From: Nitrospira sp.
Lineage (GTDB): Bacteria > Nitrospirota > Nitrospiria > Nitrospirales > Nitrospiraceae
Reading direction: 5' to 3'
NCBI GenBank assembly: GCA_016873435.1
Contig: VGXF01000001.1
Coordinates: 124,001-188,000, forward strand
DNA: 64,000 bases
Shown here: positions 41,824 to 63,838 of the stretch, in pieces
Position numbering within the stretch: position 1 is the stretch's first letter
Layout of the letters: every line of letters starts with the position of its first letter
Position numbers and translations under genes: made by a program
Notes under the pieces: generated by a model
What the model was told of the DNA's origin: nothing
What the model saw: the letters and a program-made list of their open reading frames with translations, nothing else
Database searches by the model: none

Positions 41824-41896
41824 TTCTCTCTCCTCAGCGAAAAGCAAATAGCCAGCAGCCGGCATGCTCGAAGCTATTCGCTCCGAGCTCTTAGCG

Positions 41897-44856: not shown

Positions 44857-45489
44857 ATGACCCAGTACCGCGTCCTGCCTGGCCCTGAACACTTTCTGCC
44901 GCCCGCCGCGGCCTCCATGGGCATCCGGTTGCCCAACCCTGGTGAGGCGCACATCAACGGCGTAATTGTCCAGGAAGAGAAAGCTTTCGAGGAAGCGGCA
45001 CGCCAGTTCCTGCTGGCCAAAGTCCCGACAATCTTTCCGGGGCCGTTGGTACTCTGGGCCTGGAACGAAAAGGCGGCCAAGAAAGCGGCGGCCATTCGAC
45101 ACCTATACAACACGATCAAAGAATGCGTGACGCCCCAGCAGCATGCCATGCTGATTCCCATGCCGGACTACCGGCCGAAGTATCCGAAGATCAACCCCGA
45201 AGTCGAGATCAACCCAAACCACCCGAACCTGACCATCTGGCACAACAAGATCGACGCCTGCATGTTCGTCGGCGTCCATTGTCACCAGGCGAACCTATCC
45301 CTGAAGATCATCCGCGGCGGCACGTCCTGTTACACGGTCGCGATGTGCGCCCAGGCGGGCCACGAGGACGCCATGCTGTCCTTCCGCGATGCCACCGCCG
45401 ACAAGATCATGAAACTGGCCGAGACCGTCAAGCGACTCAAGGGCAGCGTCAAGTTCGATCCCAACGCCACGCGCAAAGCCGTCAGCTAA
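44857..45489 (+). CDS. forE: 2-oxoacid:ferredoxin oxidoreductase epsilon subunit
   Basis: A 210-residue protein found with five-subunit 2-oxoacid:ferredoxin oxidoreductases of the reductive TCA cycle in Hydrogenobacter and Nitrospira. Visible features are GPEHFLPPAAASMGIRLPNP at the N-terminus, PMPDYRPKYPKINPEVEINP, and a His/Cys-rich block FVGVHCHQANLSLKIIRGG with CAQAGHEDAML (H141, C142, H143). That block could bind a metal, but this is not established. ATG 44857 starts the unit and a near-identical orphan copy lies at 57969. The substrate, pyruvate or 2-oxoglutarate, cannot be told from sequence. Confidence 0.8.
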   Translation: MTQYRVLPGPEHFLPPAAASMGIRLPNPGEAHINGVIVQEEKAFEEAARQFLLAKVPTIFPGPLVLWAWNEKAAKKAAAIRHLYNTIKECVTPQQHAMLIPMPDYRPKYPKINPEVEINPNHPNLTIWHNKIDACMFVGVHCHQANLSLKIIRGGTSCYTVAMCAQAGHEDAMLSFRDATADKIMKLAETVKRLKGSVKFDPNATRKAVS

Positions 45490-45509
45490 GCACACAAGGA
45501 GGCCGGACC

Positions 45510-46721
45510 ATGGCGGAGAATAAATCCTTCATCGGCACCCAGAACAAGAAAAACCAGACCTACACAGACGCCTGGAAATTGCTCCACGAGGCGCCTCGTA
45601 CCCCGTCGTTCTTCACGGGCAGCGAGGTCATCAAGGAAGCCATCCGGCGGGCCAGCTGCGACGTGATGATCGCCTACCCCATCACCCCGCAGAGCGAAGC
45701 GGCCGCGCTGATCGGTGAGCTGTTCGCGGAAGGCTACATCGGCGACTACTTCCGAGGGGAGAGCGAATTTGCGGTCATGAGCCAGTGCGCCGGCGCAGCC
45801 TTTGGCGGCGCGCGGGTGTTCACGACAACGGCCGGCCCAGGCACGATGCGGGCCATGGAAAACTTCCCGATGTGGGCGGGTGCGCGGCTGCCGATCCAGA
45901 TGATTGTCACCTGCCGCGGCATCAACTCGCCGCTGTCGATCCAACCAGACACGCTGGAAATCGCCTACCTGCTGAATACCGGCATGCTGGTGTGGCACGC
46001 AGAGACCGCGCAGGACTTCTTCGACTGGATTCTTAAGGGCTACATAGTTTCCGAGGAACCGGACGTGCACCTGCCACTGGCGCTCTGCTGCGACGGCTTC
46101 TTTGTGACGCACACGAAGGACGTCGTCAACCTGACGCCGGCGGACATGTGCCTGCCTCCCTACGACCCCTATCGCTCGCCGGTCCCGTGCATGGACATGG
46201 AATGTCCCCCGGTCCGGATGATGCGCGATCCCTTCGTTATGAAGAGTAACTACATCAGCTATGCCACGCATGCCAGCTGGCAGCAGGAAGTTTGGGCAGC
46301 GATCGAGCGGTCGCGCAAGCACTCGATTAAGTGGCTGGATGGCCTGATCGATACTGAGAACATCGACGCGGACATCATGATCGTGGCCTCCGGCACCGCC
46401 GTGTCACAGGGCCGCGAAGCGATCCGCTTGCTGGAGGACGAGGGGGTCCGTTGCGGGCTCGTGAAAGTCAAAACCTTGCGGCCCTGGCCGGGCGACGAAA
46501 TCCGCGAGGCGACGAAGAACGCCAAGCACATCTTCGTGCCGGAGTTCAACGTCACCGGCTGGCTAGCCAAGGAAATCCGGGCCACGATCCCGAACAGCGA
46601 CCGCGTGCATGCCGGCCCGCACGTGTGCGGGGGCATGACAATGCCGCCGGAGATCATCGTCTCCGAGATCAAGACCACGCTGGGGATGCAAACTGTTTCC
46701 CTGGCCGGCCGCGGCAGCTGA
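45510..46721 (+). CDS. forA: 2-oxoacid:ferredoxin oxidoreductase alpha subunit
   Basis: A 403-residue alpha chain (PorA/KorA type). The pyrimidine-binding part has CDVMIAYPITPQSEAAALIG and GESEFAVMSQCAGAAFGGAR with TTAGPGTMRAMENFPM. The transketolase-like domain II starts at about residue 285 (DIMIVASGTAVSQGREAI). It forms the thiamine-diphosphate reaction centre with the beta chain, reductively carboxylating acetyl-CoA or succinyl-CoA or the reverse. AAGGAGG precedes the ATG at 45510. Confidence 0.92.
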   Translation: MAENKSFIGTQNKKNQTYTDAWKLLHEAPRTPSFFTGSEVIKEAIRRASCDVMIAYPITPQSEAAALIGELFAEGYIGDYFRGESEFAVMSQCAGAAFGGARVFTTTAGPGTMRAMENFPMWAGARLPIQMIVTCRGINSPLSIQPDTLEIAYLLNTGMLVWHAETAQDFFDWILKGYIVSEEPDVHLPLALCCDGFFVTHTKDVVNLTPADMCLPPYDPYRSPVPCMDMECPPVRMMRDPFVMKSNYISYATHASWQQEVWAAIERSRKHSIKWLDGLIDTENIDADIMIVASGTAVSQGREAIRLLEDEGVRCGLVKVKTLRPWPGDEIREATKNAKHIFVPEFNVTGWLAKEIRATIPNSDRVHAGPHVCGGMTMPPEIIVSEIKTTLGMQTVSLAGRGS

Positions 46722-46769
46722 CCGGTTGTTCGCAAATACGAATTCGAGCGCCCCAAACGAGGAGGCAAC

Positions 46770-47681
46770 ATGAGCAAGGAACGCATCAAGATTTCTCCGG
46801 ACCTGTTCGACATCATGCCCCAGGATTATCAGGATCTGGTTAAGCGGGCCACCTACGGTAAGGAGGACCGCGGCTGGAAGGACATCGGCCAGGCCAAGGA
46901 ATTGATCGAGGAGCATTCGCTCTGCGCCGGCTGCCCCGAATCCATGGCGTTCCGCTACATTCTGGCCTCGCTGCCGGCCCCGGAAGACACGGTCATGGTC
47001 GGCTCCACCGGCTGCACCAGCTTAGTGTTTCCGATGGTGGCGGTGCACAACATCCACTCGTTATTCGGTAACCAGAACGCCATCGCCTCTGGCCTCAAGC
47101 GGGCACTGACGGTCCGGTTCCCCGGCAAGGTCAAGGACGTCGTGGTGCTCGCCGGCGACGGCGCGACGGTGGACATCGGACTGGACATGACGCTTCAGGC
47201 CTGGTTTCGCCAGGAGAAGTTCACCACAATCTGCTTTGACAACGAGCTCTATGCCAACACAGGCGGTCAGGAAAGCGGTTTGATGCAAAAAGGCTTCGTG
47301 GCCAAGATGGCGCCAGTTGGCAAACTATTCGACAAGGTGCGCCTCCCCGAGATCGCCCGTGAGTCCGGCTGCCACTACGTCGTGAATTGTACGGTGAGCA
47401 AGCCGTCGCTCGTCGAGAAGGTGATCCGGAACGCGGTGCTGATCGCTCGCGAGATCGGTCCAACCTATCTGCAGCTCTACACGCCCTGCATCCTGGAGAT
47501 CGGCAAGAACAGCATGGAGGGCCTCCAGGAAATGCGCGATTCGGAGAAACCGACCGAGCGGTTCGCCTACAAGGAATACGTCAGCGAGCCGGCCAAGCAG
47601 TTCCTGGCCGAACTGGCTGCAAAGGACAAGGAACGGAAGGCTGCGGCCAAGCAACTGGCCGGCGCTACGCAGGAAGCCTAG
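46770..47681 (+). CDS. forB: 2-oxoacid:ferredoxin oxidoreductase beta subunit
   Basis: A 303-residue beta chain binding thiamine diphosphate and a [4Fe-4S] cluster. Cysteines in SLCAGCPESMAFR, STGCTSL and later CxxC-free positions match the cluster set. The ThDP/Mg motif is VVLAGDGATVDIGLDMTLQA and then NELYANTGGQESGL. It lies 48 bases after the alpha gene with GGAGG before the start. Confidence 0.93.
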   Translation: MSKERIKISPDLFDIMPQDYQDLVKRATYGKEDRGWKDIGQAKELIEEHSLCAGCPESMAFRYILASLPAPEDTVMVGSTGCTSLVFPMVAVHNIHSLFGNQNAIASGLKRALTVRFPGKVKDVVVLAGDGATVDIGLDMTLQAWFRQEKFTTICFDNELYANTGGQESGLMQKGFVAKMAPVGKLFDKVRLPEIARESGCHYVVNCTVSKPSLVEKVIRNAVLIAREIGPTYLQLYTPCILEIGKNSMEGLQEMRDSEKPTERFAYKEYVSEPAKQFLAELAAKDKERKAAAKQLAGATQEA

Positions 47682-47703
47682 ACCGGAGTAAAAGGAGCGC
47701 GCG

Positions 47704-48411
47704 ATGATCAAGAAACGGCTCAATATCCGGATGTCGGGCCTCGGCGGACAGGGCGCCGTCACAGCAGCCCACGTCATGGCCATGGCCGCCAACAAGGACG
47801 GCAAGTTCTCGATCTCCAACCCGTTCTTCGGCGCTGAAAAGCGCATGGCTCCGGCAGAAAGTTACTGCCGAATCGGCATCGAGCGAATCTACGACCGTGG
47901 CGAGCTGGTCTTCCCGGATGTGATCGAGGTGTTCCACCCGCAGGTGATTACGATGGGCAAGAGCTATACCATGCCCTTTTACTCGGGCATCAAAGAGGGC
48001 GGCGTCGTCATCATCAACTCGGGACTGCCCCTGTTGTCCGACGAGGACGTCCAGCGGTTGAAGGATTTGCACGTGGCCCTGTTTTACATCCCCGGCACCG
48101 AGATCGCGTTGGAAGTAGCCGGCACGGAGCTGTCCACGAACATGACGATGATCGGCTCGGTGGCCGGCATCACCAAGTGCGTGTCCATGGAAGCCTTGGA
48201 TGCGGCACTCCAAGAACGATTTGGCAAGAAGTTCGTCGCCTCCGGCGGTACGGCGTCGCTGGACGAAGCAATCAAGAAGAAGTTTGCCAAGAAGGAAATG
48301 CTGCTCCAGAAAAATCTGGCAACCGTCAAGCGGGCCTACGAAATCGCCTCGGAATGGGCGGAAAAGAACAAGATTGAGCTGCGCGTCGGCAATCCTGCCG
48401 TCGCCGCGTAA
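47704..48411 (+). CDS. forG: 2-oxoacid:ferredoxin oxidoreductase gamma subunit
   Basis: A 235-residue gamma chain. It opens with the family motif IRMSGLGGQGAVTAAHVMAM. NPFFGAEKRMAPAESYCRIG follows. Gamma chains interface with coenzyme A. A helical tail (KKKFAKKEMLLQKNLATVK) extends past the usual ~190 residues. Confidence 0.92.
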   Translation: MIKKRLNIRMSGLGGQGAVTAAHVMAMAANKDGKFSISNPFFGAEKRMAPAESYCRIGIERIYDRGELVFPDVIEVFHPQVITMGKSYTMPFYSGIKEGGVVIINSGLPLLSDEDVQRLKDLHVALFYIPGTEIALEVAGTELSTNMTMIGSVAGITKCVSMEALDAALQERFGKKFVASGGTASLDEAIKKKFAKKEMLLQKNLATVKRAYEIASEWAEKNKIELRVGNPAVAA

Positions 48412-48429
48412 GGAAGGATTCGCGCTCTC

Positions 48430-48708
48430 ATGTACAATGTCGCGCAAGTCATTGATGAAAAGTGTGTGGCTAAGAAGGGCTGCCGGCTCTGCATCATGTA
48501 CTGTCCGGAAGCCAATTGCCTGGACCTCAACGCCCCCAAAATGGTGGCGGAGGTCACCATCAGCCGCTGCAAGGGCTGCGAGTTGTGCGTCGTCGTCTGC
48601 AACGCCGCCAAGCACAATGCCATCGAAATGCAGGCAGTCGGCGCCACGGGGAAATTGATGTCCCACAAGGGTGAATCGGCGGCGCTGGGTCAAGCCTACC
48701 AGGGCTGA
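48430..48708 (+). CDS. forD: 2-oxoacid:ferredoxin oxidoreductase delta subunit (2[4Fe-4S] ferredoxin)
   Basis: A 92-residue ferredoxin-like chain. The first cluster is KCVAKKGCRLCIMYCPEANC and the second is CKGCELCVVVCNAAKHNAIE, giving two CxxCxxCxxxC-type sets, the first with a slightly longer spacing. It passes electrons between the reaction centre and soluble ferredoxin. It is the last gene of the operon, followed by a strong terminator. Confidence 0.93.
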   Translation: MYNVAQVIDEKCVAKKGCRLCIMYCPEANCLDLNAPKMVAEVTISRCKGCELCVVVCNAAKHNAIEMQAVGATGKLMSHKGESAALGQAYQG

Positions 48709-51370: not shown

Positions 51371-52606
51371 TCAGCCCTCTTCCTCCGGTAACAAGTCGTG
51401 CCGTTCAGCGCGCATGTGCCGCTTTTCCCATGTCGGTTTCTTGAAGGGATCACGAAAGGCACGCCACAGCTCTTCGTCCAGGGCAAGCTCCGCTCTGGTC
51501 AACAGGCACGCATCTAGCCGCCGTTTCAAGTAGACGCGATCAATCTCCTCGCCCATGAAGGCCAGTTCAATCCGGCGATCCCCAAATTCGAGATCCCACA
51601 CCTTGCGCAGTTCGTCGAGTGCCTCCTCTTCATTCGGCCAGTGCCGATCCGGAATCGCCACCCACCAGCGGCCTAGCCGCTCGTAGAGGCAGTTGGCGCC
51701 AGCCTGCGACCACATATAACAAGTCTTCGGTTGTGAGGCGATCCAGAAATATCCTTTGGACCGCAGCACACCCAGCCACTCCTCTTGCATTAACAGCCAA
51801 AATCGGAACGGATGGAACGGCCGTTTCGCTCGATAGACGAACGTCCCTGTTGCACGATCGCCTTTTGGCAGCGACGTCCCGCTCAACGCATGCATCCAGC
51901 CGGGTGTGATTTCTAGCGCCGCCCCCTCATGAGAGCGCGTAGTCTCTAGCAACAAGGGATCGCGGTCTCCCTGAGACACCGCCATGCACCCTGCATCAGG
52001 GTTGACCTGCCAAAGAAACCGCTCAAGACGCTCCCGCTCGACCGGTGTCACACGATCGCACTTGCTCAGCACGAGCGTCGTGCTGAATTCCAGTTGATCC
52101 GCCAGTAATTCAGCGAGGGTTCGCGCATCATCCGGTCCCGTGCCGAGCCCCCGCTCACGGAGCGTGGTCCCGGACTCATAGTCTTCCCAAAAACGCTCCG
52201 CATCAACGACCGTCACCAAGTGGTCCAAACGCGCGACAGCGGAAACGGTGACCCCCTCGGTCTCATCGGCATCGAAGAGATTGGCGATCAGGAGCGGATC
52301 CGTGCTACTTGAACTTTCAATGAGAATGGTGTCGTATTTGCCCAAGCTCGTCAGCCGAATGATTGCTTCAGCGACATGCTGACGCAAGGAACACTGAGTA
52401 CATGCAGCCGTCAACTCGACAAGAGCTTCACCACGAAGGTAGTGCTCTCCGCCAAAAATCTCGATCTCGCCAGTTAATCCGCTCAGGTCGTTCGTGATGA
52501 CCGCCGTCCGCGTTGGATTCAGTTCACGCACCAGACGCCGAAGCACTGTCGTCTTCCCGACACCGAGAAAACCTGATACCACGATAACGCTTACCTTGTT
52601 ACTCAT
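51371..52606 (-). CDS. COG0523 (CobW/ZNG1-like) GTPase, degenerate subtype, copy 1
   Basis: A 411-residue G3E-family P-loop protein. Walker A is VSGFLGVGKTTVLRRL (residues ~10-24). The usual CxCC metal motif is replaced by ACTQCSLRQ (C69, C72), and the NKxD guanine motif by VLSKCDRV. The C-terminal CobW_C domain is kept (RPFHPFRFWLL and MWSQAGANCLYERL). COG0523 proteins are GTP-driven metal chaperones. ATG 52604-52606 with AGGAAG upstream is used. It is the downstream-most of four tandem copies. Confidence 0.88.
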   Translation of the reverse strand: MSNKVSVIVVSGFLGVGKTTVLRRLVRELNPTRTAVITNDLSGLTGEIEIFGGEHYLRGEALVELTAACTQCSLRQHVAEAIIRLTSLGKYDTILIESSSSTDPLLIANLFDADETEGVTVSAVARLDHLVTVVDAERFWEDYESGTTLRERGLGTGPDDARTLAELLADQLEFSTTLVLSKCDRVTPVERERLERFLWQVNPDAGCMAVSQGDRDPLLLETTRSHEGAALEITPGWMHALSGTSLPKGDRATGTFVYRAKRPFHPFRFWLLMQEEWLGVLRSKGYFWIASQPKTCYMWSQAGANCLYERLGRWWVAIPDRHWPNEEEALDELRKVWDLEFGDRRIELAFMGEEIDRVYLKRRLDACLLTRAELALDEELWRAFRDPFKKPTWEKRHMRAERHDLLPEEEG

Positions 52607-52647
52607 ACCGCTTCCTCTCAACGCCTGGGTTCTCAACCCACTCCGAC

Positions 52648-53847
52648 TCAGCTCCAACGCGGAAACGGATCCGGATATTTCTGCCAAGCGGGTTTGCCCT
52701 CGGCTAGCTCCGTATCGGTCAGCAGGCATGCGTCAAGGTCTGCACGGAGCGCCGCCTCATCCATCCGCTGACCGATGATGACGATCTGTTGGCGCCGGTC
52801 GCCGAAATTGGGATGCCACATCGCCTTGAGCTGCGCCTTCACCTCAGCGGAGTCGGGCCACTGCTCTTCCGGTATCATGGCCCGCCACCACCCCATCGGG
52901 CCGAGTTGCCACACAGTCCCAGCCAGCGACAACAGCCCGATAAACTCCAGCCGGCCAGCCAAATACACCAACCCTTTGGCGCGCAACACGCCGGGCCAAG
53001 GTCGGCTCAACTGGTCCGCCAACCGCTGCGCATGAAATGGGCGACGACTCCGATAGACAAAACTTGCAATGTCGTATTCTTGGGATTCCGAACGCGTGCC
53101 TTCGCGCAGCGTTTTCATCCACCCAGCCGCCTGCGAGGCTCTGGCGAATTCGAATCGTCTCGTATTGAGGATCTCTGCTGGTGATACGTGCCCATATTGC
53201 ACTGAGCGGATCACCGCGTCTGGATTCAACGTTGCGAGAATCGTTGTCAGTTCCTGCAGAGCCTGCGGTTCCATCAAGTCGGTCTTGTTCACAACGAGCA
53301 CGTTCGCAAATTCCACCTGATCGATCAGCAGATCGGTGATGGTCCGCTCATCCTGCTCGCTCACCGCCAGGCCACGCTCTTTCAACTCCACGCCTTCTCG
53401 ATAGTCGTGGAGAAACCGCGGGCCGTCCACTACCGTGACCATGGTATCGAGCCGCGACAGGTCGGCCAACGCCTGCCCCTGCGCGTTTTCAAACGTAAAG
53501 GTCTCCGCTACCGGCATCGGCTCTGAGATGCCAGTTGACTCGATGAGCAGATACTCAAACCGCCCCTCTTCCGCTAGCCGGGCGACTTCGTTCAGCAGGT
53601 CTTCCCGTAACGTGCAACAGATGCAGCCGTTGCTCATTTCCACTAGCTTCTCTTCCGTGCGACTTAGCGCCGCACCGCCGTCAGCCACCAGCAGCGCATC
53701 AATGTTTACCTCGCTCATGTCGTTCACAATCACCGCTACGCGTAACCCTTCCCGATTGTGCAGTACGTGGTTAAGTACCGTGGTTTTTCCTGCTCCAAGA
53801 AATCCCGACAAGACCGTCACCGGCAACCGCGCCGTGTCCGTGCGCAT
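52648..53847 (-). CDS. COG0523 (CobW/ZNG1-like) GTPase, canonical subtype, copy 2
   Basis: A 399-residue canonical member. Walker A is [18 protein letters not shown] (~13-30), the metal-binding CxCC is [13 protein letters not shown] (C75, C77, C78), the switch region is [15 protein letters not shown] and the guanine motif is VVNKTDLM. The CobW_C domain follows from about residue 245. It starts immediately after the stop of copy 3. Known relatives deliver zinc to client enzymes under starvation. Confidence 0.93.
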
Positions 53848-55128
53848 CTACCGCTCCTCCGACGTCGTCGACAGACCATCCGATTCCACCACTGTTTCCG
53901 TTGGCGGAAAGCGGTCCGGCTTCCCTTCCCACGACGACCGCCCGGAGGCCCATTCCGCTTCCGTCACCAGACAAGCGTCCAGCTTCGCCGTCAGCGCTGC
54001 ATGATCCATTCGTCGACCAATCAGCACCAGTTCTTGACTGCGATCGCCGTACTCCGGATCCCACACTCCCTGGAGGCGCTGATATTCTTCTTCCTCTTCC
54101 GGCCAATCATCCTTAGGCATCGCGGCATACCAGCGCCCGGCCCACCGTACGTTGCCGGTCCCGCCCGCCTGCGACCACAGCCCGATGAGATCCGAGCGCG
54201 TGGCGATCCAGAACAGCCCCTTCGACCGGAGGACGCCAGGCCATGACTCCTGGAAGCAGTACCAGAGCCGCTCTGGATGAAACGGACGCCTAGCCCGGTA
54301 CACCATAGTGGTAATCCCGTATTCGTCGGCCTCGGACCGTTCGTGCCCGCGCAAGGTTTTCATCCAGCCTGCAGCCTGGCTGGCCCGCTCAAAATCGAAG
54401 GCCCTGGTGTTCAAGATGACGTTGAGATTAATTTGCCCGTGCCGAATCGAGACACACCGCGCTTCAGGGTTCAACGCGGCAAGGATGGCCGTCAGTTCGC
54501 ACAGCTCGCTCTCGGACACCAGGTCCGCCTTGTTGATCAGCAGCACATCGGCAAACTCGACTTGATCGATGAGCAGATCTGTGATGGTGCGCTCATCCTC
54601 GCCGCCGACGCCGAGCCCTCTGGCTTGGAGATCCTCCGCTTCGTGATAGTCTTTGAGGAAGTTGACCGCATCGATGACAGTAACCATCGTATCCAGTCGC
54701 GCGACGCCAGTCAGACCGCCTCCCGATTCGTTCTCAAATTGAAACGTCTCAGCGACCGGCATCGGTTCCGAGATTCCCGTCGACTCGATTAGCAGATAGT
54801 CGAACCGCCGCGCCTCTGCCAGCCGTGCCACTTCCTTCAGAAGATCTTCTCGCAAGGTGCAGCAGATGCAGCCGTTGCTCATCTTGACCAGCTGCTCGTC
54901 GGTGCGGCTCAATTCGGCCCCTCCTTGCTCGATCAGCTTCGCATCGATATTCACCTCGCTCATGTCGTTGACGATGACCGCCACACGCAACCCTTCTCGA
55001 TTGTGTAGCACGTGGTTGAGCACGGTGGTCTTCCCTGCGCCAAGAAACCCCGACAGAACTGTCACTGGCAAGCGCTGATCAACTCTCCCAGTCTCAGGAA
55101 CGGGCTTTGTCGTCACATGAGTTGCCAT
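53848..55128 (-). CDS. COG0523 (CobW/ZNG1-like) GTPase, canonical subtype, copy 3
   Basis: A 426-residue paralogue of copy 2 with a longer N-terminal tail. Walker A is [17 protein letters not shown] (~24-40), CxCC is [13 protein letters not shown] (C87, C89, C90), the switch is [11 protein letters not shown] and the guanine motif is LINKADLVS. CobW_C contains [21 protein letters not shown] 55126-55128 with AAGGAGGAG upstream is used. Its start overlaps copy 4 by 35 bases. Copies 2 and 3 share long identical stretches, pointing to a fairly recent duplication. Confidence 0.93.
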
Positions 55129-56407
55129 CAGTCTCCTCCTTGTCCGAATCTCCGTCGTCGTGGGCATCGGTCTGGGCGAGCGCGCGGGCGAAGGGATCGT
55201 CAAATCGTCGCCAGCTGGATTCACCCTCCAGCACCTCCGCCGGTGTCAACAGGCAGCGCTCAAGTTGTCGTCGCCAGTCCACGGCATCCAAGTGATAGCC
55301 GATCCAGCCGAACGTCTGCCTCCGGTCGCCGAACTCGACGGACCACTGCCGCTTGAGCTCTGCCTCAAACGCGGGATCGGCGGGCCATTGGTCCCGCGGC
55401 GTGGCCGCCCACCAATCTCCGATACACTCAAAATGTCTCGATCCGGCCGTCTGCTCCCAGGAAAAACACCGCTCCGGTTGAGATGCGACCCAGAAATGCC
55501 CTTTGCACCGAAGCAATCCCACCCAATCGGATTCGATCAGATCCCACAAACGCTCTGGATGGAAGGGGCGCGTGGCCCGAAATACCCCCATCGCCCAGTG
55601 AACCGATGAAATCGTCGGCAGTGGCGCACCTTGGATGAGCTTGGCCCAGCCGGGCTGAAAACTGATCGGCATCGAGGCCGGCATCCGTGCTCCAAGGATT
55701 TGTCCTGCCAGATTCGATTCATCCGCCATCAACAAAATCATGGCTTCCGGGTTCAACGCTTCAAGCAGGTGCCGTAACCGCCGCAGCTTTCCGCTCGGTA
55801 GCCCCTCCGTCTTGGACAGCACCAGCACCGTCGCATACTCCACCTGGTCCACGACCAGTTCAGAAATCGTCCGCCCGTCATCCGTTCCGCAACTCACACC
55901 GCGAGCCTGCAAGTCGTCCACGGTGTGCAGATCGCCCCAAAAGGTCTGGCTGTCAACCACCGTAACCAGGTGATCGAGTCGTGCCTTTGATGCCAGCGGC
56001 TCTTGGTTCTCCCAGGCATCGTTGAAGACTTCGGCAACGAAGACCGGCTCGACCAATCCGGAACACTCCACCAGCAGTCGATCAAACCGTTCCATGGCGG
56101 CGATCGCCATAACGGCGCTCGTCAAGCTGTCGCGCAAGGAACAGCCGACGCACCGCTCAACCAACTCGGCCAGGACTTCACCAAGGCTGAATATGGTCAC
56201 TCCTTGCGATCGACAGAAGTCTGCATCCAATCCGGCATCGCTGCGGTCATGGACTAGTAGGGCCACACGCCCGGAGGCTCGCTCGGTGAGGAGTTTCCAC
56301 ACCATCGTGCTCTTCCCGGCTCCGACAAACCCGCAAACGACAGTGACCGGAAGCCGGCTACCATCCGACTCGGTTTGTGCGGGGGGCTCAGACAGCGGGA
56401 TCGCCAC
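55094..56407 (-). CDS. COG0523 (CobW/ZNG1-like) GTPase, degenerate subtype, copy 4
   Basis: A 437-residue protein starting at a GTG (56405-56407) with GGGAGG upstream. Walker A is [18 protein letters not shown] (~23-40). The metal motif reads [12 protein letters not shown] (C86, C89, no CxCC) and the guanine motif reads VLSKTEGL. The switch is [15 protein letters not shown]. CobW_C contains [18 protein letters not shown]. The tail is acidic. Like copy 1 it is a diverged partner of the canonical pair. It overlaps the L31 gene by 20 bases. Confidence 0.88.
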
Positions 56408-56672
56408 GACGACCTCCCGCTGCACCACGGCCTCGATATTTCTTATTAAATTTCTCGACTCGCCCTTCGGTATCGATGATGCGCTGCGTTCCCGTATACA
56501 ACGGATGCGAGTACATCGATGTGTCGACTTTGTAAATTGGATAGGTTCGTCCGTCTTCCCAAACCGTCGTCTGATCGGTCTGCACCGTCGACATCATTAC
56601 CCAACGCTTGCCGATCGCGACATCGTGAAAGACAACCGGACGATAGCCCGTCGGATGGATACCAGGTTTCAT
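56388..56672 (-). CDS. rpmE2: 50S ribosomal protein L31 type B, zinc-independent (C-) form
   Basis: A 94-residue L31 of the RpmE2/YkgM type, with no cysteine at all. It begins [20 protein letters not shown] and has the L31 end [20 protein letters not shown] plus a basic tail. In other bacteria this paralogue replaces the zinc form when zinc is scarce and is repressed by Zur. ATG 56670-56672 follows AAGGAG. The zinc form lies at 41617. Confidence 0.95.
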
Positions 56673-56704
56673 CACGTCTCCTTGCGCTCAGCCACGAACG
56701 CCGG

Positions 56705-57010
56705 CTACCAGCTTGATTTCCGCACGCCGGGAATCTCACCCTTCAGCGCGTGCAGGCGAAAGTCGATCCGCGACATGTCGAATCGGCCCACATATCCCCG
56801 CACGCGCCCCGAGATCGCACAGCGATTGCGCACCCGGACGGGCGACGAATTCCTCGGCAATTTCTGTAGCGACTGCTGTGCCTCCTGCTTCTGCTCCTCG
56901 GTACTCGCCTGCCCCTTGATCACCGCTTTCAACGCCTTGCGCCGCTCAGCATACTGCGCGACCAATCGCTTGCGTTTCTCGTTTCTTAATCGACTGCTCA
57001 ACTTTGCCAT
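56705..57010 (-). CDS. rpsN: 30S ribosomal protein S14, zinc-independent (C-) form
   Basis: A 101-residue S14 of the long type without CxxC zinc ligands (a single cysteine in [16 protein letters not shown]). It starts [20 protein letters not shown]. The short zinc type would be ~61 residues with four cysteines. It lies between S18 and L31 copies. Confidence 0.93.
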
Positions 57011-57059
57011 ACGCTCTCCCTTCCGACTTCAACACAATGGATTCGTCGTCCTAGCTTAC

Positions 57060-57275
57060 TCAGTAGTCTGATCGCCCACCGAACGGCAACATTGCCATAT
57101 GCCGCGCACGTTTGATCGCACGGGCAATTTCTCGCTGCCGCTGCTGACTATTCCCCGTCATGCGACGAGGGAGGATCCGTCCATTCTCTGTGATGAATCT
57201 CCGCAACCATTCGACATTTTTCCAATCCACGGGCGTGATCACATCGATCACGCGACGTCGTCGTTCTTCAGGCAT
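57060..57275 (-). CDS. rpsR: 30S ribosomal protein S18, cysteine-free form
   Basis: A 71-residue S18 with no cysteine. It begins MPEERRRRVIDVITPVDWKN and continues with FITENGRILPRRMTGNSQQR and QREIARAIKRARHMAMLPF. ATG 57273-57275 follows TAAGGAG; earlier in-frame codons lack family support. S18 and S14 open the ribosomal part of the island, matching the order in known Zur-controlled sets. Confidence 0.93.
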   Translation of the reverse strand: MPEERRRRVIDVITPVDWKNVEWLRRFITENGRILPRRMTGNSQQRQREIARAIKRARHMAMLPFGGRSDY

Positions 57276-57416
57276 GCATCGCTCCTTAGTTGACTGGACT
57301 GAGATTGGCTCCGCCGGTCCCTCACCGACTCTTTGCCTAAACGTCACGCGTAACACGTGAGGACGTCAGACACGGACAAGTCCGCGCACTGACGGAATCA
57401 ACACGATGCGAAGAGA

Positions 57417-57767
57417 TCAACCGAGAACGGGTGGACCGCGAGACTGAAGGGTGAGGGCCAGCAGAATCGAGAAAATCTGCGGCATTGAGATCGTGACAGG
57501 ATGTGACGGAACCAGCACGGACGGCAGGACGGGGACCGCTCCGGACAGCCCCGAACTGGCAGCCCATTCCAACCATGCGTGGATATCGATGTCGGAGTGA
57601 CTGGCATCTCCCGCCTGCATAGCCGAGTAGTGGTCGACGAGGAGATAAGGCAAGGGCAGCGCAACCAGTACATAGAGCACTGCCACGGCAGCGACGAGTA
57701 CTCGTCGAGGCAATGCTATCTGCACCGATCTCAGCACGGGATTACACCAATCCATAGCGCGCTTCAC
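57417..57767 (-). CDS. Small membrane protein (DUF2946-like layout), unknown
   Basis: About 116 residues (GTG at 57767) or 112 (ATG at 57755). A hydrophobic helix, RVLVAAVAVLYVLVALPLPY, follows a short N-terminus. A loop with DASHSDIDIHAWLEWAA comes next, then a second helix ending LTLQSRGPPVLG. The C-terminal SRGPP ending resembles DUF2946 proteins linked to metal-related clusters; the match is weak. The loop holds histidines and aspartates that could bind metal. It overlaps the upstream gene by 26 bases. Confidence 0.55.
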   Translation of the reverse strand: MKRAMDWCNPVLRSVQIALPRRVLVAAVAVLYVLVALPLPYLLVDHYSAMQAGDASHSDIDIHAWLEWAASSGLSGAVPVLPSVLVPSHPVTISMPQIFSILLALTLQSRGPPVLG

Positions 57768-57960
57768 ATTTCAGCGCACTTTCGTCGAATTCTTGTGCGC
57801 CTACACCGACCCACTGTCCCTGCTGGACTGTAAAACATTGCGCGCAGGTCTGGTCATAAAAGGGCGATAGGCCGATGATCCACTCACGGGAAAACTCTCG
57901 TTGGTATTCCTTGGGGAGGAAGGCCATGAACCCGGACGGTGGTGGTGAAAACTCGGACAT
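57742..57960 (-). CDS. Small CxxC-containing hypothetical protein, 72 residues
   Basis: It begins MSEFSPPPSGFMAFLPKEYQ and has a CAQC pair in YDQTCAQCFTVQQGQWVGVG and one more cysteine near the end (ALKCEARYGLV). No family recognised. It is eight bases downstream of the orphan epsilon-subunit gene and overlaps the next gene, so all three are likely co-transcribed. Confidence 0.6.
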   Translation of the reverse strand: MSEFSPPPSGFMAFLPKEYQREFSREWIIGLSPFYDQTCAQCFTVQQGQWVGVGAQEFDESALKCEARYGLV

Positions 57961-57968
57961 CTCAACTC

Positions 57969-58583
57969 CTACTGCACCGCGACGGGCCCCGGGACAGTCC
58001 CCTTCAGTTCACGCACTTTGTCGGCCAGACGGATAATATGCTCCGGCGTGATGTCGCGAAACGATAACATGGCATCCTCGTGCCCAGCCTGCGCGCACAT
58101 TGCCATGGTGTAGCAATTCGTCCCGCCCCGCACAATTTTCAAGGTCAGATTCGCTTGATGGCAATGGACCCCGATAAACAAACACGCATCGATCCGGTTG
58201 TGCCAAATCGTCAAGTTTGGATGGTTCGGGTTGATCTCAACCTCTGGATTGATCTTCGGATACTTGGGTCGATAGTCCGGCATTGGAATCAACATCGGCT
58301 TCTGATTGGGCCCCACACTCTCCTTCAATACAGTAAAGAGGTGACGAATCGCCTTCGCCTTCTTCTCGGCCGTGGGCGTCCAAGCCCACAACACCAGTGG
58401 TCCCGGGAAGATCGTTGGCACCTTGGCGCTCAGGAAGCGCCGCGCCGCCTCCTCCATCGCCTGCTCCTCACGCACGATATACCCGTGCACGATCGCTTCG
58501 CCTGGATTGGGCAATCGCACACCCATGCTGGCCGCAGCCGGTGGTAAAAAATGCTCGGGCCCAGGTCGAACCTCGTAACGCAC
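57969..58583 (-). CDS. Orphan paralogue of the 2-oxoacid:ferredoxin oxidoreductase epsilon subunit
   Basis: About 204 residues, highly similar along its whole length to the epsilon subunit at 44857. Shared blocks are GPEHFLPPAAASMGVRLPNP, MLIPMPDYRPKYPKINPEVE and the HCHQ block GVHCHQANLTLKIVRGG with CAQAGHEDAML. No alpha, beta, gamma or delta genes accompany it. Start: GTG at 58583, matching the paralogue's N-terminus with GAGGA upstream; a GTG at 58598 would add five residues. A Fur-family-like dyad lies about 22 bases upstream. It heads the zinc-island transcript. Confidence 0.85.
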   Translation of the reverse strand: MRYEVRPGPEHFLPPAAASMGVRLPNPGEAIVHGYIVREEQAMEEAARRFLSAKVPTIFPGPLVLWAWTPTAEKKAKAIRHLFTVLKESVGPNQKPMLIPMPDYRPKYPKINPEVEINPNHPNLTIWHNRIDACLFIGVHCHQANLTLKIVRGGTNCYTMAMCAQAGHEDAMLSFRDITPEHIIRLADKVRELKGTVPGPVAVQ

Positions 58584-58604
58584 CGCAGGAGTCCTCACAT
58601 TATT

Positions 58605-58619
58605 AAATGCAATTCATTT
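58605..58619. promoter_or_regulatory. Candidate Fur/Zur-family operator
   Basis: A 15-bp dyad, AAATGCAATTCATTT, with six of seven matched positions around a single central base (7-1-7 layout). It is in an AT-rich patch just upstream of the orphan epsilon gene and overlaps the probable -10 region. Fur-family boxes typically have this shape. The binding regulator is inferred only; no zur or fur gene is in the window. Confidence 0.45.
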
Positions 58620-58786
58620 GCAATACTGGCGGCATCATACACGGATAGAATCTCCGATGCAAGACACCCCATTGGCTCTATGGATCGGCGTCCTATCCCG
58701 CTCCGAACCCATCGGGACAATCAGCATGGTAGAGTCCGACCTCCGGTTCGAAAAACGGCAACGGGTGTACGTCCTTCATCCCAACC

Positions 58787-59812
58787 TCACCTCGGCGAGT
58801 CGCTGACAGGAAGCCTAGAAGCCAGAAGCCTGCCGGCATCGAGCGCGCCGTACGTCACAATCAGATCGGCGCCAGCGCGGTGCATGGCACTGAGTGATTC
58901 CAACAACGCCTCTTCGTAGCTGAACATGCCAATTGCTGCAGCAGCCTTGAGCATGGCGTACTCCCCACTCACGTGATAGACCGCCACTGGAAGAGTTGAA
59001 TGGCCCCGAACGAGAGACACGATGTCCAGATACGGCAAACCGGGTTTCACCATCAGCCAATCTGCACCCTCGTCTTCATCCAACCGGATTTCCTTCAACG
59101 CCTCGCGGTGATTCGCGGGATCCATCTGATAGGTCCGCTTGTCACCGACCCGCGGGGCGCTCTCCAGGGCTTCACGAAACGGCCCATAGAATGCTGAGGC
59201 ATACTTCACAGCATAACTGCAGATGCCGACCTGTGAGTAGCCTGCCGCATCCAATGCCTCACGGATCACCCCAATCCGTCCATCCATCATGTCTGAGGGA
59301 GCCACAAGATCCGCCCCAGCCTGCGCTTGAACTACGGCCATCTCCGCCAACAACGGAAGGGTCGCATCATTGTCGATCTTTCCATCAATCACCACTCCGT
59401 CATGCCCGTCCGATGAATAGGGATCGAGCGCCACATCACTGAGGATCAGCAGATCTGGCGCCGCGGCCTTCAGGGCGCGGATTGCCCTCGCCATCAACCC
59501 GTCCCGGTTGCGACTTTCCTGTCCTCGCGGGTCCTTGAGGTGATTCGGTACCACCGGAAACAACGCGATGCCGGCGAGGCCAGCACGGGACGCTTCCGCG
59601 ACCTGCTCGATAGCTTGGTCGATCGAGACCCGCGCGCAGCCCGGCATGGAGGCGATCGGCGTGACCTGCCCGACCCCTTCCTGCACAAACAACGGCCAGA
59701 TCAATTGCTGCGGGGCCAGTTGATCCGTCGATCGCCTTGCCCGAAGCGTTGTCCGTGTACGATGGAGCGAGGACGATTCGCAGCGCGTGGGTGGAATCGA
59801 GTGAAGGTTCAT
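58787..59812 (-). CDS. hemB: Delta-aminolevulinic acid dehydratase without the zinc-cysteine site
   Basis: A 341-residue porphobilinogen synthase. The two active-site lysines are in CSYAVKYASAFYGPFREAL and MVKPGLPYLD. The position of the catalytic-zinc cysteines (E. coli C120, C122, C130) reads A128, D130, D138 in DVALDPYSSDGHDG, the aspartate type that does not use catalytic zinc. Start ATG 59810-59812 overlaps the ParA-like stop (ATGA). A zinc-sparing paralogue of HemB is a known companion of COG0523 genes. Confidence 0.93.
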   Translation of the reverse strand: MNLHSIPPTRCESSSLHRTRTTLRARRSTDQLAPQQLIWPLFVQEGVGQVTPIASMPGCARVSIDQAIEQVAEASRAGLAGIALFPVVPNHLKDPRGQESRNRDGLMARAIRALKAAAPDLLILSDVALDPYSSDGHDGVVIDGKIDNDATLPLLAEMAVVQAQAGADLVAPSDMMDGRIGVIREALDAAGYSQVGICSYAVKYASAFYGPFREALESAPRVGDKRTYQMDPANHREALKEIRLDEDEGADWLMVKPGLPYLDIVSLVRGHSTLPVAVYHVSGEYAMLKAAAAIGMFSYEEALLESLSAMHRAGADLIVTYGALDAGRLLASRLPVSDSPR

Positions 59813-60408
59813 TCCCAAGGCTCTTTGACCATTCGCATCAGACAGTCGATTGCCCAAGTCGTGAGCGGTTGCCCTTCCATCACGTTCGACCAGATCGCTT
59901 CCCATCGGATGACCGCTGGAGAAATTCTGAATCCCTTGCTCTCCACGGCGGCCCGCATAGCCGATGTCGGCCACTCCACGACTTGATTCCATAACACCCG
60001 CATGGCCGGATTGATCCCTTCATCCCCAAGCGTCGCACGCAAAGCTGCGACCCCCTCCAACGCCCAGATGTCGGGATAGGACGGGCGAACTGGTACGAAC
60101 ACCTGGTCGGCTGCACGCAGAATGCTCGTTGTCATATCGGACAACATCGGCGGTCCGTCGACGACCATCCACTCAAAGCTCGGCGCAAATCTGGATGCTT
60201 GCTCGTGCACGATCGGCTGAATCTGCGAACGGGCCACGACACGGAATTGTTCTCCCCAGTGGCTCGCCCATTCACTTGCCGTCCCTTGCACATCCGCATC
60301 CAGCAAGAGTACGCGAGCCCCCTGCTCCGCCAATGCCATCGCGGTCGCAATCGCCAGGGTCGTCTTTCCCGTGCCGCCCTTCTGGTGGAGAAACGCGACC
60401 GTGCGCAT
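59809..60408 (-). CDS. Small ParA/MinD-type ATPase coupled to hemB
   Basis: A 199-residue SIMIBI-class ATPase. The deviant Walker A is FLHQKGGTGKTTLAIATAMA (two lysines). Walker A' is VLLLDADVQGTASEWA and the switch-like WMVVDGPPMLSDM follows. It lacks a DNA-binding N-terminus and no parB is adjacent. Standalone members partition plasmids or position proteins; some relatives (CooC, NifH, Mrp) insert metals. It lies nine bases after pyrC and overlaps hemB, so a link to metal or cofactor handling is plausible but unproven. Confidence 0.82.
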   Translation of the reverse strand: MRTVAFLHQKGGTGKTTLAIATAMALAEQGARVLLLDADVQGTASEWASHWGEQFRVVARSQIQPIVHEQASRFAPSFEWMVVDGPPMLSDMTTSILRAADQVFVPVRPSYPDIWALEGVAALRATLGDEGINPAMRVLWNQVVEWPTSAMRAAVESKGFRISPAVIRWEAIWSNVMEGQPLTTWAIDCLMRMVKEPWE

Positions 60409-60417
60409 GGATCCCGC

Positions 60418-61737
60418 TCACGCGGCGCGGGGCTCCCAATGTCGAATCCGCCCCCCGACAACAGTCATTATGACTCGACCCCGCACCGGCCATCCGGCAA
60501 ACGGCGTATTCCGCCCCTTTGAGAGGAACTGCTCTGGATCAACGACCCATTCGCGCGTACGATCCACCACGACAATGTCGGCTGATACTCCGGGCGCCAA
60601 TGTACCACCCGGCAATCCCAACAACCCGGCCGGCTTGCTGGTCAAACACTGCACGGCACGCTCCAGAGGCAAGACACCCTGCTCGACAAGCCGCAGCGTC
60701 AAGGCCAACGCCGTCTCCAGTCCCACGATCCCGAACGGGGCTCGCTCCATACCCCATTGTTTTTCATACTCCGCGTGAGGGGCATGGTCTGTCGAAATCG
60801 CGTCGATGGTTCCGTCTACAAGCCCCTCCAGTAATGCGTCTCGGTCCCGCTCACTCCGTAAAGGTGGATTCATCTTGGCATTGACGCCCTGCTCGCGAAC
60901 CGCTTCGTCGGTCAACGTGAAATGATGCGGACAGACCTCGGCCGTCACCCGCAAACCCTTGACCTTGGCCTGACGCACCAGGTCTACCCCGACCGCCGTG
61001 CTGAGATGTGCGACATGGAGTCGTGCACCCGTCTCTTCGGTTAGCCTGATGTCTCGCGCAATCATTCGAAACTCTGCGCCGGTTGGAATGCCCGGGACCC
61101 CCAACACACGCGACACTGGCCCTTCGTTCATACAGCCACAACCGGATAGGATCAGATCCTCGCAATGGTCAATCACAGGCAGATCGACATCCGATGCCTG
61201 CTTCATTGCCTGTTGCATGACCTCATCATTCATCACCGGCCGCCCATCATCCGACAGCGCGACACAGCCCGCCTCTTTCAAGGCTCGAAAATCGGTCAAC
61301 TCACGGCCGGCTGCCCCCTTGGTAATCGCGCCGATCGGATAGACCTTGGCACGATCGGCTTCGCCGGACTTCCGCTTAATGAACTGCGTCACTGTCGGCT
61401 CATCGTTCACCGGCTTCGTGTTCGGCATACAGCAGATCGACGTGAAGCCCCCTGCCACGGCTGCCGCCGTCCCGGTGGCGATGGTTTCCTTATATTCAAA
61501 GCCTGGCTCACGCAGATGGACATGGAGATCGACGAGGCCCGGCAACACCAGCAACCCTGTGATATCCAGACGCGCTGCCTCCCGGGGAGGAGCCTCATCC
61601 GGCGAGACCACCGCATCAATCACTCCATCTCTGATCCACACATCGGCTTTGCCGTTCCAGCGGCCCGGGTCAAGCACCCAGCCGCCGGCGAGGATCAGGA
61701 AGGAGGGCTGCTCCTCGGTATTGAACCTATTGACCAT
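60418..61737 (-). CDS. pyrC: Dihydroorotase (class I)
   Basis: A 439-residue amidohydrolase of pyrimidine synthesis. All zinc-ligand positions are visible: HVHLREPG (HxH), the aspartate/lysine region SDDGRPVMND, DHCED, HVAHLST and the catalytic STDHAPH. The fold is therefore expected to be active and to need metal. PyrC paralogues recur in COG0523/zinc clusters, where they are thought to be a starvation-time copy. ATG 61735-61737 starts it; the histidine-rich gene is divergent. Confidence 0.92.
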   Translation of the reverse strand: MVNRFNTEEQPSFLILAGGWVLDPGRWNGKADVWIRDGVIDAVVSPDEAPPREAARLDITGLLVLPGLVDLHVHLREPGFEYKETIATGTAAAVAGGFTSICCMPNTKPVNDEPTVTQFIKRKSGEADRAKVYPIGAITKGAAGRELTDFRALKEAGCVALSDDGRPVMNDEVMQQAMKQASDVDLPVIDHCEDLILSGCGCMNEGPVSRVLGVPGIPTGAEFRMIARDIRLTEETGARLHVAHLSTAVGVDLVRQAKVKGLRVTAEVCPHHFTLTDEAVREQGVNAKMNPPLRSERDRDALLEGLVDGTIDAISTDHAPHAEYEKQWGMERAPFGIVGLETALALTLRLVEQGVLPLERAVQCLTSKPAGLLGLPGGTLAPGVSADIVVVDRTREWVVDPEQFLSKGRNTPFAGWPVRGRVIMTVVGGRIRHWEPRAA

Positions 61738-61797
61738 CCACCACCATCAAGCCTAGTATCAACGTGCCTCGGCCCTTCTCACGAAAGGAGTTCTCCG

Positions 61798-62145
61798 ATG
61801 AGCGACCACCCCATCCATGAGCATCACGCCCATCAGCACGGAACGAACTGTGGGCATCTGGCCGTCCTCCATGACGGTCATATCGATTATCTCCATGACG
61901 GACATCTTCATCATCCGCACGGCGACCATGTCGATGAACATCGGCTCGGTATCACCACGCAAAACCCGGCGGGATGCACCCCCACCCATCGCTGCGAAGG
62001 GCATGAGTCCGAACATCGCCATGGCCCGAACTGCGGACATCAAGCGGTGCCGCACGGAGACCATATTGATTATCTGGTCGCCGGCCATTTGCACTTCGCC
62101 CATGGCGCGCATTGTGACGACCATGGGGCCCTACGACTCGCGTAG
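61798..62145 (+). CDS. Histidine-rich metal-binding repeat protein
   Basis: A 115-residue protein with 28 histidines. It has two copies of the module NCGHxAVxHxxHIDYL (at 17-32 and 78-93), each followed by GHLH and HGxHxDxH patterns, plus cysteines at 18, 60, 66, 79 and 106. No signal peptide. Such proteins can store or buffer Zn, Ni or Co. AAAGGAG precedes the ATG. It is divergent from pyrC and its end overlaps the thiol-peroxidase gene by 15 bases. Confidence 0.85.
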   Translation: MSDHPIHEHHAHQHGTNCGHLAVLHDGHIDYLHDGHLHHPHGDHVDEHRLGITTQNPAGCTPTHRCEGHESEHRHGPNCGHQAVPHGDHIDYLVAGHLHFAHGAHCDDHGALRLA

Positions 62146-62718
62146 GAACGATTCGTCACTATCGGTGCGGGACGCCTGACTCAACGACGTCCCGCGCTTT
62201 GCGCTCAGCCGTTCTAGAAACCCGCTTACCTCTGCTGGTCGCATCTGATCGAGCGGTATATCGACTTCTAGAAACACACCATCCCGTAGCGCAAACAGCC
62301 CGTGCGCGATGCGCTGATGATCCTCCACGCCGACTCCAAACGCCGACACAAAGGCCTCTCGACTCGCCGGATCCGCACAGCAGAGGGAATAGCCTGCGGC
62401 GCGAACATTCGGATGAAACCGGTCGACTTCTTGCCAGTGCGCCTCATGATCCGCTGAGACATGGACAATCTTGAGATCCAGCAACTGCCCACGACCACGC
62501 TCTTCCAGATCCACGATCTGTGCAAGGCACGCGTGTTTCTGGATGTTCGGCAATGTGGAAACCACGACCAGCCCACGGCAAAGTTCATCCGCCGTAAGCG
62601 GTGTATCCGCCAACCTTGCAGCCGGAATGGTGAACTCGACGGTCAGGCGCTCTCCAGGAGATGGAGTCCGTCCCTGTAAATTAATGACCCGCTCTCCCAA
62701 CTGTGCTTCCCTGCTCAT
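62131..62718 (-). CDS. Thiol-peroxidase-like (Tpx/peroxiredoxin) protein
   Basis: A 195-residue thioredoxin-fold protein resembling atypical Tpx. The peroxidatic region is VVSTLPNIQKHACLAQIVDL, with the cysteine in the expected place, and a vicinal CC occurs further on (NVRAAGYSLCCADPASREAF) as a possible resolving pair. It starts 17 bases after the ZIP gene stop and is read leftward with it. A role in protecting thiol metal sites is inferred. Confidence 0.72.
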   Translation of the reverse strand: MSREAQLGERVINLQGRTPSPGERLTVEFTIPAARLADTPLTADELCRGLVVVSTLPNIQKHACLAQIVDLEERGRGQLLDLKIVHVSADHEAHWQEVDRFHPNVRAAGYSLCCADPASREAFVSAFGVGVEDHQRIAHGLFALRDGVFLEVDIPLDQMRPAEVSGFLERLSAKRGTSLSQASRTDSDESFLRES

Positions 62719-62735
62719 CCCCCAAACTTCCTTCG

Positions 62736-63542
62736 TTAATGCGCGAGCATCGTCAGCATTGCGATCGTCACCATGCCGGCGATCATCATGGCGAACTGCA
62801 ACACCCCCTTGGCCGCCCCCATGCGCCCGTGCAGACCAGGGACCAAGTCTGCCAGGCCAATGTAGAGAAAACTTGCGGCTGCCACGCTGAGGGCATAGGG
62901 CACGATCGCCTCCGCGTAGCCGAGGCCGCCATAGGCGGCAACGGCCCCGACCAGCGTCCCCAGCCCCGAGAGCGTGTTCCAGAAAAAAGCCTTCCAGCGA
63001 GAAAACCCACTCGACAGGAGGATGGTGAAATCGCTGAATTCTTGCGGGACTTCATGGCCCAACACCGCGAGCGTCGTGACGAGACCGAGTCCCGGTGAGG
63101 CTACGCAGGCCGCACCGATGGCAATGCCGTCAGCGGTGTTGTGGACGGCATCGCCGATCAGCACCAGCATGCCTGTGTGCGTTCCTCCGACCGGCGCATG
63201 ATCATGAGCCTGGCCGGTGCCACGAGGGCCCTCAGCAGGTTCCTCCCCGTGCGCATGTCGCCAGATCACCGTCCACTCCAGCACGAAAAACAGAACAAGC
63301 CCACCCAGAATCGACAGTCCTACTTCGTAGCTAGGAATATGCTCCAAGGCCTCGGGGATCAGCCCAATGATTGCGGTGGCCAACATCGTGCCTGTGGCAT
63401 AACTCAGCAGATACGGCATCGCCCGATGCCGCCAGCCGTCGGGAACGAATAAGATGACGGCAGCAGGCAGCAGCGCCCCCAGGCTCCCAAGCAGCCCCAT
63501 CAGAACGACGAATTCCCAGGACGATTCGGCAGGAAGCGTCAT
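62736..63542 (-). CDS. ZIP-family metal transporter
   Basis: A 268-residue membrane protein with about eight helices. The ZIP signatures are in the transport-site helices: IGDAVHNTADGIAIGAA (TM4, H-N-D) and VLGHEVPQEFSDFTILL (TM5, H-E). A histidine-rich loop (AHGEEPAEGPRGTGQAHDHA) lies between TM3 and TM4 and is typical of zinc ZIPs. Uptake of Zn2+ is likely, though ZIPs can carry Fe, Mn or Cd. It overlaps the upstream gene by four bases (ATGA). Confidence 0.92.
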   Translation of the reverse strand: MTLPAESSWEFVVLMGLLGSLGALLPAAVILFVPDGWRHRAMPYLLSYATGTMLATAIIGLIPEALEHIPSYEVGLSILGGLVLFFVLEWTVIWRHAHGEEPAEGPRGTGQAHDHAPVGGTHTGMLVLIGDAVHNTADGIAIGAACVASPGLGLVTTLAVLGHEVPQEFSDFTILLSSGFSRWKAFFWNTLSGLGTLVGAVAAYGGLGYAEAIVPYALSVAAASFLYIGLADLVPGLHGRMGAAKGVLQFAMMIAGMVTIAMLTMLAH

Positions 63543-63838
63543 GATAGGCGTTTCTTCTCTCGATAATCGGCATATCGCTGTTCACAGGGGGCAATCGACG
63601 AATCTCCCAAGAATCGTGACCACTCACTATGGGTGGAGACATCGACACCCTCGGCCCGAGCTTCCCGCTGGAGGACAACCTGAAGGTCAAGGAGCAGGTC
63701 TGACTCGTCGATATCGGCCTCCGAGTCGGCCCGCAACTGGGCAAACATTGCTCGGTAGATGCGCTTGAGTTCGTCGAGCGAACAATCAAGTACAAAGCGG
63801 TTCTGCTGTTTCGTGATACGTGATTCTAAAGGAGACAT
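63539..63838 (-). CDS. Hypothetical protein translationally coupled to the ZIP transporter
   Basis: A 99-residue soluble protein beginning MSPLESRITKQQNRFVLDCS and then LDELKRIYRAMFAQLRADSE. The middle is acidic (ADIDESDLLLDLQVVLQREA) and there are single cysteines only. I do not recognise a family. The four-base overlap with the ZIP gene means co-expression, so it may act in metal uptake or its control. Confidence 0.62.
   Translation of the reverse strand: MSPLESRITKQQNRFVLDCSLDELKRIYRAMFAQLRADSEADIDESDLLLDLQVVLQREARAEGVDVSTHSEWSRFLGDSSIAPCEQRYADYREKKRLS

Follow-up and report, generated by a model that had tools for sequence, protein, structure and literature searches.

We give slightly better than even weight to the reading that the gene at 57969-58583 of the window (the whole 64,000-nucleotide stretch analyzed here, from Nitrospira, nitrite-oxidizing bacteria of wide occurrence) codes for a zinc-starvation isoform of the CODH-epsilon-like subunit, which would replace the standard subunit in the main oxidoreductase. 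The enzyme concerned would be the five-subunit 2-oxoacid:ferredoxin oxidoreductase of the reductive TCA cycle, and the analysis suggests that this CO2-fixing oxidoreductase may be rebuilt when zinc is scarce. As judged from the DNA, the gene has an intact frame under constraint, a conserved predicted operator with a promoter-like element, and the first place in an operon-like run; the cell would presumably benefit from the isoform.

The orphan subunit and its paralogues

The first-pass annotation had described the gene as a near full-length paralogue of the epsilon gene at 44857-45489, and this proved correct. The frame of 204 codons is intact. Its long form spans 58598-57969, and because the start at 58583 (GTG CGT TAC) follows an AGGA and occupies the position of the ATG start in relatives, 57969-58583 are the right coordinates. 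In profile searches, both proteins matched PF02552 (CO_dh) at 1e-39 to 1e-40, the orphan with 136 bits (curated cut-off 21) over residues 29-187, which covers the whole domain. The two are 76% identical, and their HCH and CAQAGHEDAM blocks, which the annotation had reported as kept, are the same.

The genome (1.72 Mb, 98.5% complete) contains three PF02552-type genes: the main copy, the orphan and a third copy (C1:262188-262733; 56% identity). The third copy is flanked by the alpha and gamma genes of a second oxidoreductase operon, which has its own alpha, beta and gamma subunits; a ferredoxin gene is found at the corresponding place in related operons. Each oxidoreductase operon therefore has its own epsilon, so that no operon is without this subunit and the orphan is without operon partners. 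No oxidoreductase partner genes lie beside it in the island, as had been claimed, and it is an orphan in 5/5 genomes. We rejected it as a subunit of the second oxidoreductase, as that operon has its own copy and the orphan is of the main type. The annotation had named a complete second operon using this copy as an observation that would count against a stand-in role; the second operon uses its own epsilon, and the idea was not refuted.

Considering the residues, the orphans keep 50 of the 51 columns that show no variation across three types of operon-borne copy (n = 114), I152V being the exception. At positions diagnostic of the main versus the second type, the orphan agrees with the main type at 11/12, which shows its main-type character at the sequence level. 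All universal cysteines and histidines (H122, C135, H141, C142, H143, C158 and C164) are kept. These results bear on one of the two roles proposed in the first pass, that of a protein freed from the complex to bind metal, and this reading found no support: such retention of family-invariant residues is not expected of a protein freed from its partners, and the free metal-binding protein is the less likely of the two. In a broader form, where the paralogue has left the oxidoreductase to serve in zinc homeostasis, for instance as a binder of metal or, through a Sir2 fold, of nucleotides, we consider the idea clearly unlikely. The island has no partner subunits, metal chaperones adjoin the gene and the predicted fold resembles both Sir2 and CODH epsilon (in a model with a mean pLDDT of only 72.7), all of which speak for it; against it, a protein outside the complex would have been free to drift, and yet both the invariant and the main-type diagnostic residues were kept. 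That model, which is of the main copy and of moderate confidence, matched Sir2 and CODH-epsilon folds in a structure search. Among PDB chains searched by sequence, there was no relevant match, the single hit (E = 0.071) being an unrelated protein.

Three cysteine or histidine positions, H32, C90 and C134, are absent from the five orphans and present in 90/90, 80/90 and 71/90 main copies, respectively. This loss is at chance level, with 3/14 consensus columns changed among 41 changed of 199 columns (P=0.58). C90 and C134 partly covary among the main copies, where neither is universal; the main copy of this genome already lacks C134, and the orphans gain two histidines. Given the P value and the gained histidines, zinc-ligand loss was rejected as direct proof of zinc sparing and kept as a lead.

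Zinc island, operator and regulator

The orphan heads the zinc island, as the first-pass annotation had stated: it is the first gene of a tightly spaced run on one strand, with a palindrome just upstream. It is followed, after a gap of 8 nt, by the gene for a 72-aa protein and then by those for a small membrane protein, S18, S14, L31 and four CobW-type GTPases (Table 1). Upstream of the orphan lie genes for HemB, a ParA-like ATPase, a dihydroorotase paralogue and a ZIP-family transporter. This gene set is a classical zinc-starvation island. The GTPase at 53848-55224 is the zinc metallochaperone ZigA (NF038288, 609 bits, cut-off 600). A zinc-type L31 lies at 41617-41865, as seen by inspection of the sequence, and the other HemB of the genome (C2:168356) reads DVCIDEYTSHGHCG. 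The orphan is likewise clustered with COG0523 GTPases and other zinc-sparing paralogues, and its standard paralogue is elsewhere, in the main operon.

Table 1. Coordinates of the orphan gene, the zinc island and the main oxidoreductase operon in the window.
Feature	Position	Strand	Basis
Main operon, first gene: standard epsilon of the five-subunit oxidoreductase	44857..45489	(+)	PF02552; alpha, beta, gamma and ferredoxin come after
Main oxidoreductase alpha, beta, gamma and 2[4Fe-4S] ferredoxin subunits	45483..48708	(+)	2-oxoacid oxidoreductase families for alpha and beta
Four CobW/COG0523 GTPases	51371..56428	(-)	ZigA model for one; PF02492 and PF07683 for the other three
Ribosomal protein L31 type B (zinc-free)	56388..56675	(-)	NF002462 above cut-off
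Ribosomal protein S14 paralogue without CxxC pairs	56705..57010	(-)	NF006477 above cut-off and sequence
Ribosomal protein S18 paralogue without zinc-ligand cysteines	57060..57356	(-)	PF01084 and sequence
Small membrane protein, 116 aa	57417..57767	(-)	ORF; kept in 5/5 orphan islands
72-aa protein without known family, island marker	57742..57960	(-)	In 16/175 family genomes
Orphan CODH-epsilon-like oxidoreductase subunit, 204 aa	57969..58583	(-)	PF02552 E=1e-39; 76% to main copy
Predicted Zur-type operator, palindrome ATTGCAAATGAATTGCATT	58606..58624	(-)	22 nt upstream of orphan start codon; core matches and conservation
Promoter-like element TTGCAT-17 nt-TATGAT	58634..58662	(-)	Adjoins operator; conservation only; -35 fits consensus at 3/6
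Zinc-independent-type HemB paralogue, DVALDPYSSDGHDG, without zinc cysteines	58787..59992	(-)	PF00490
Dihydroorotase paralogue	60418..61737	(-)	Second copy C2:230911, 60% identity
ZIP-family transporter related to ZupT	62736..63542	(-)	NF003243 E=2e-16, below its cut-off

Two small proteins of the run, the 72-aa protein (no match in Pfam or NCBIfam) and the 116-aa membrane protein (no family match), fall outside known families. The former has a CxxC motif and adjoins zinc-free ribosomal paralogues in 16/16 marker islands. Divergent in the island (61816-62145, plus strand) is a gene for a histidine-rich protein of 109 aa with repeats like HxxNCGHxxxxHxDHxDYLxxGHLH; it has no Pfam family, is 84-92% conserved in the orphan-bearing genomes and is a candidate zinc buffer or chaperone.

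Scanning with the 19-mer palindrome identified a second site at L005:9477-9495, about 5 kb past the window end and just before a Fur-family gene (L005:9049-9465). Across the 1.72-Mb genome, the core TGCAANTNANTTGCA is matched perfectly at exactly two places, namely these two sites, against about 0.1 expected from its 12 fixed bases; since the core was derived after both sites and those of relatives were known, the count is a consistency test rather than a blind one. The 19-bp palindrome stands directly before the orphan in 5/5 genomes, with 0-5 mismatches relative to the window copy, and three of the islands that lack the orphan have the same box ahead of the 72-aa gene. Just upstream of the box, TTGCAW-17-TATGAT/TATTAT is conserved in all five orphan genomes; a promoter scan at a fixed threshold called no promoter beside the operator.

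The Fur-family protein matches PF01475, and from its context we infer that it is Zur. If it were instead Fur or PerR, the operon would answer to iron or to oxidants, which also damage Fe-S enzymes, and the enzyme class indeed carries [4Fe-4S] clusters (PMC10052474). Consistent with this, the NCBIfam Fur and PerR models outscore the Zur model, but all of the scores are below the curated cut-offs and so are not decisive. The operon, moreover, contains classical Zur targets (zinc-free L31, S14 and S18, ZigA and a zinc-independent-type HemB), and we regard iron or peroxide control as very unlikely. Just past the window, the run L005:3885-9465 comprises this fur/zur-family gene followed by more CobW-type GTPases and a WD-repeat protein; it runs in the direction of the island, whose strand it shares, and has the second operator at its head.

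Distribution and descent of the orphan

The orphan was found in 5 of the 175 family genomes, all of them Nitrospira-type metagenome bins, in copies 92-98% identical to the one in the window. Two of the named records matching these carriers (L036-L039) are from M_DeepCast samples (50 m and 65 m), which we take to be from Lake Tanganyika. Common to the five is the gene order HemB, epsilon, 72-aa protein, membrane protein and zinc-free S18, running on to S14, L31 and CobW-type GTPases where the contigs are long enough. The linkage, which the first-pass annotation had allowed might be unique to this genome, thus recurs in four others, but it is restricted: among the 16 family genomes with the 72-aa marker, five have the orphan, one has a relic and ten have the island without it. 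We also rejected a binning artefact, as the window island is on one 316-kb contig together with murA and the main operon and the linkage is seen again on contigs of 316 kb (G062) and 941 kb (G070); the G082 copy, on a contig of 25.6 kb, could in principle be misbinned. For plasmid carriage of the island, no plasmid match was found.

In the ten islands without the orphan, dihydroorotase, where present, directly adjoins the 72-aa gene, and the orphan islands have an extra inserted block with ParA, HemB and the orphan. In G070, this block also has a DHH-like gene and an M23-peptidase gene, which lie between HemB and the orphan (L118:16116-17948); in Vibrio cholerae, a cell-wall hydrolase is reported to be under Zur control (PMC6381278). 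The relic, in G069 (L138:10304-10660), is an internally deleted orphan with both ends still readable, located between HemB and the 72-aa gene, and this genome has also lost the operator and the downstream S18, S14, L31 and GTPases. As only 5/16 marker islands carry the gene and one has lost it, the orphan is useful rather than essential.

The five orphans group as one clade with 100/100 support, nested in the main-operon cluster of the Nitrospirales, with a long stem (0.65) and short branches afterwards; in terms of sequence, the history is one of a single duplication, a long stem and then slow change. Twelve changes are fixed in the orphans at positions that are invariant, or nearly so, in 90 main copies. 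This pattern bears on whether the isoform might be chemically equivalent to the standard subunit, with expression under zinc starvation serving just to increase the supply of this subunit and saving no zinc, for instance if the assembled enzyme became less stable or turned over faster. The retention of all universal cysteines and histidines and of nearly all invariant residues would fit such a dosage or backup role, as would the reported persistence of zinc ligands in several paralogues under Zur control, for which copy number has been suggested as the reason (Haas et al. 2009, PMC2770081). However, the stem and the 12 fixed changes speak for a functional shift, and divergence followed by a freeze is not what a plain extra copy would require, and so we consider dosage alone unlikely, if far from negligible.

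Relative to G082, the genome of the window shows 72% identity for MurA, 87% for the main epsilon, 98% for the orphan and mostly 85-99% for the other island proteins; the dS of the orphan is 0.13, and that of the main copy is saturated. The nearest relative by MurA (G001, 88%) has no match to the 72-aa marker. Because the identity of the orphan and the island is far above that of MurA and G001 is without the marker, the island, with the orphan as part of it, was very probably gained horizontally, as far as sequence comparison can tell. The island as a whole (51371-63838) appears to have been exchanged between Nitrospira-type genera, its proteins being mostly 85-99% identical where MurA reaches only 70-72% identity. 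The alpha and beta subunits are 92-96% identical across the orphan hosts, so that an epsilon subunit moving between these hosts could be compatible with each.

Such exchange between genera, along with the relic in one genome and the ten relatives' islands that do without the gene, would also be expected of a passenger caught in a mobile island and carried without a role. We find this barely credible, as the orphan has a dN/dS of 0.04-0.10 across the five genomes, between which its synonymous divergence reaches 1.25, the operator directly precedes the gene in every carrier, and the genome with the relic lost the operator and the downstream zinc-related genes as well.

Proposed role and comparison with known systems

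In the zinc-starvation reading, the Fur-family protein would act as Zur, and falling zinc would lift repression, so that the orphan would be made along with the zinc-free paralogues and would take the place of the standard subunit as new main-type oxidoreductase is assembled. The likeliest reason would be that the stability or assembly of the standard subunit needs zinc, either directly or via a chaperone, and that the isoform thereby lets CO2 fixation continue; the next most likely would be that it simply adds to the dosage of a scarce subunit. The first-pass proposal of a swap into the complex under metal stress is strengthened, if still conditional, by the operator in all five genomes, the zinc-sparing operon, the retained invariant residues and the main-type diagnostic positions. 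A more specific claim, that the CODH-epsilon-like subunit is zinc-dependent and that these nitrifiers, through Zur, exchange it for a version independent of zinc, we consider less likely than not. The word "zinc" was not found in PMC10052474, where no zinc is reported for the five-subunit enzyme.

Zur-regulated zinc-independent paralogues include C-minus ribosomal proteins, HemB2, PyrC2, FolE2, DksA2 and Cam (Haas et al. 2009, PMC2770081). The orphan resembles these in being a housekeeping paralogue found with COG0523 GTPases and a Fur/Zur-type operator while the standard copy is elsewhere, and its island neighbors HemB, PyrC, L31 and S14 are textbook members of the group. In contrast, the nine enzyme families listed by Haas et al. 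include no oxidoreductase or carbon-fixation subunit; the standard epsilon, moreover, is not known to require zinc, and zinc-ligand loss is at chance level. A literature search of open-licence papers found no description of a zinc-controlled stand-in for an oxidoreductase subunit, in line with the first-pass remark that no such role was known. The Zur-regulated stand-in paralogue is known as a kind, and what appears to be new is its client, a subunit of a CO2-fixing oxidoreductase.

The five-subunit oxidoreductases of Aquifex and Hydrogenobacter have the same CODH-epsilon-like subunit beside alpha, beta, gamma and a ferredoxin-like subunit, and it was found in the purified complex (PMC10052474). 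In Aquifex naming, this chain is "delta" and the ferredoxin-like chain is "epsilon". Both copies there lie inside oxidoreductase operons, whereas the genome of the window has a third copy that is on its own within a metal-response operon. The archaeal CODH/ACS epsilon (PF02552; PDB 3cf4_G, 9c0t_C) shares the Pfam family and, by structure search, the Sir2-like fold, but belongs to a different enzyme complex and gave no PDB sequence match; the Nitrospira hosts use the subunit with the oxidoreductase. As the role of the CODH-epsilon-like subunit in five-subunit oxidoreductases has been called "intriguing" (PMC10052474), a metal-controlled, freestanding isoform offers a handle on it, with two natural, exchangeable versions that can be compared for zinc, stability and activity. 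If confirmed, a central carbon-fixation enzyme would join the processes that bacteria rebuild under zinc scarcity, in this case in Nitrospira. If the zinc-dependence is also true, zinc supply would set the subunit composition of a CO2-fixing enzyme, and the role of the subunit would be tied to a zinc site.

Other multi-copy genomes were considered as sources of further orphans. These candidates were rejected, as the extra PF02552 copies examined either adjoin oxidoreductase genes or form tandem pairs in a distant family; in a short locus of 3.5 kb (L172), a PF02552 copy has no visible partner. In G077, the main oxidoreductase operon occurs twice within 9 kb (L147:8658-17416), with two epsilon genes and a second alpha that matches in part. 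The tandem pairs of epsilon-like genes, at L160 and L163, are from G232 and G191 of a distant family of the phylum.
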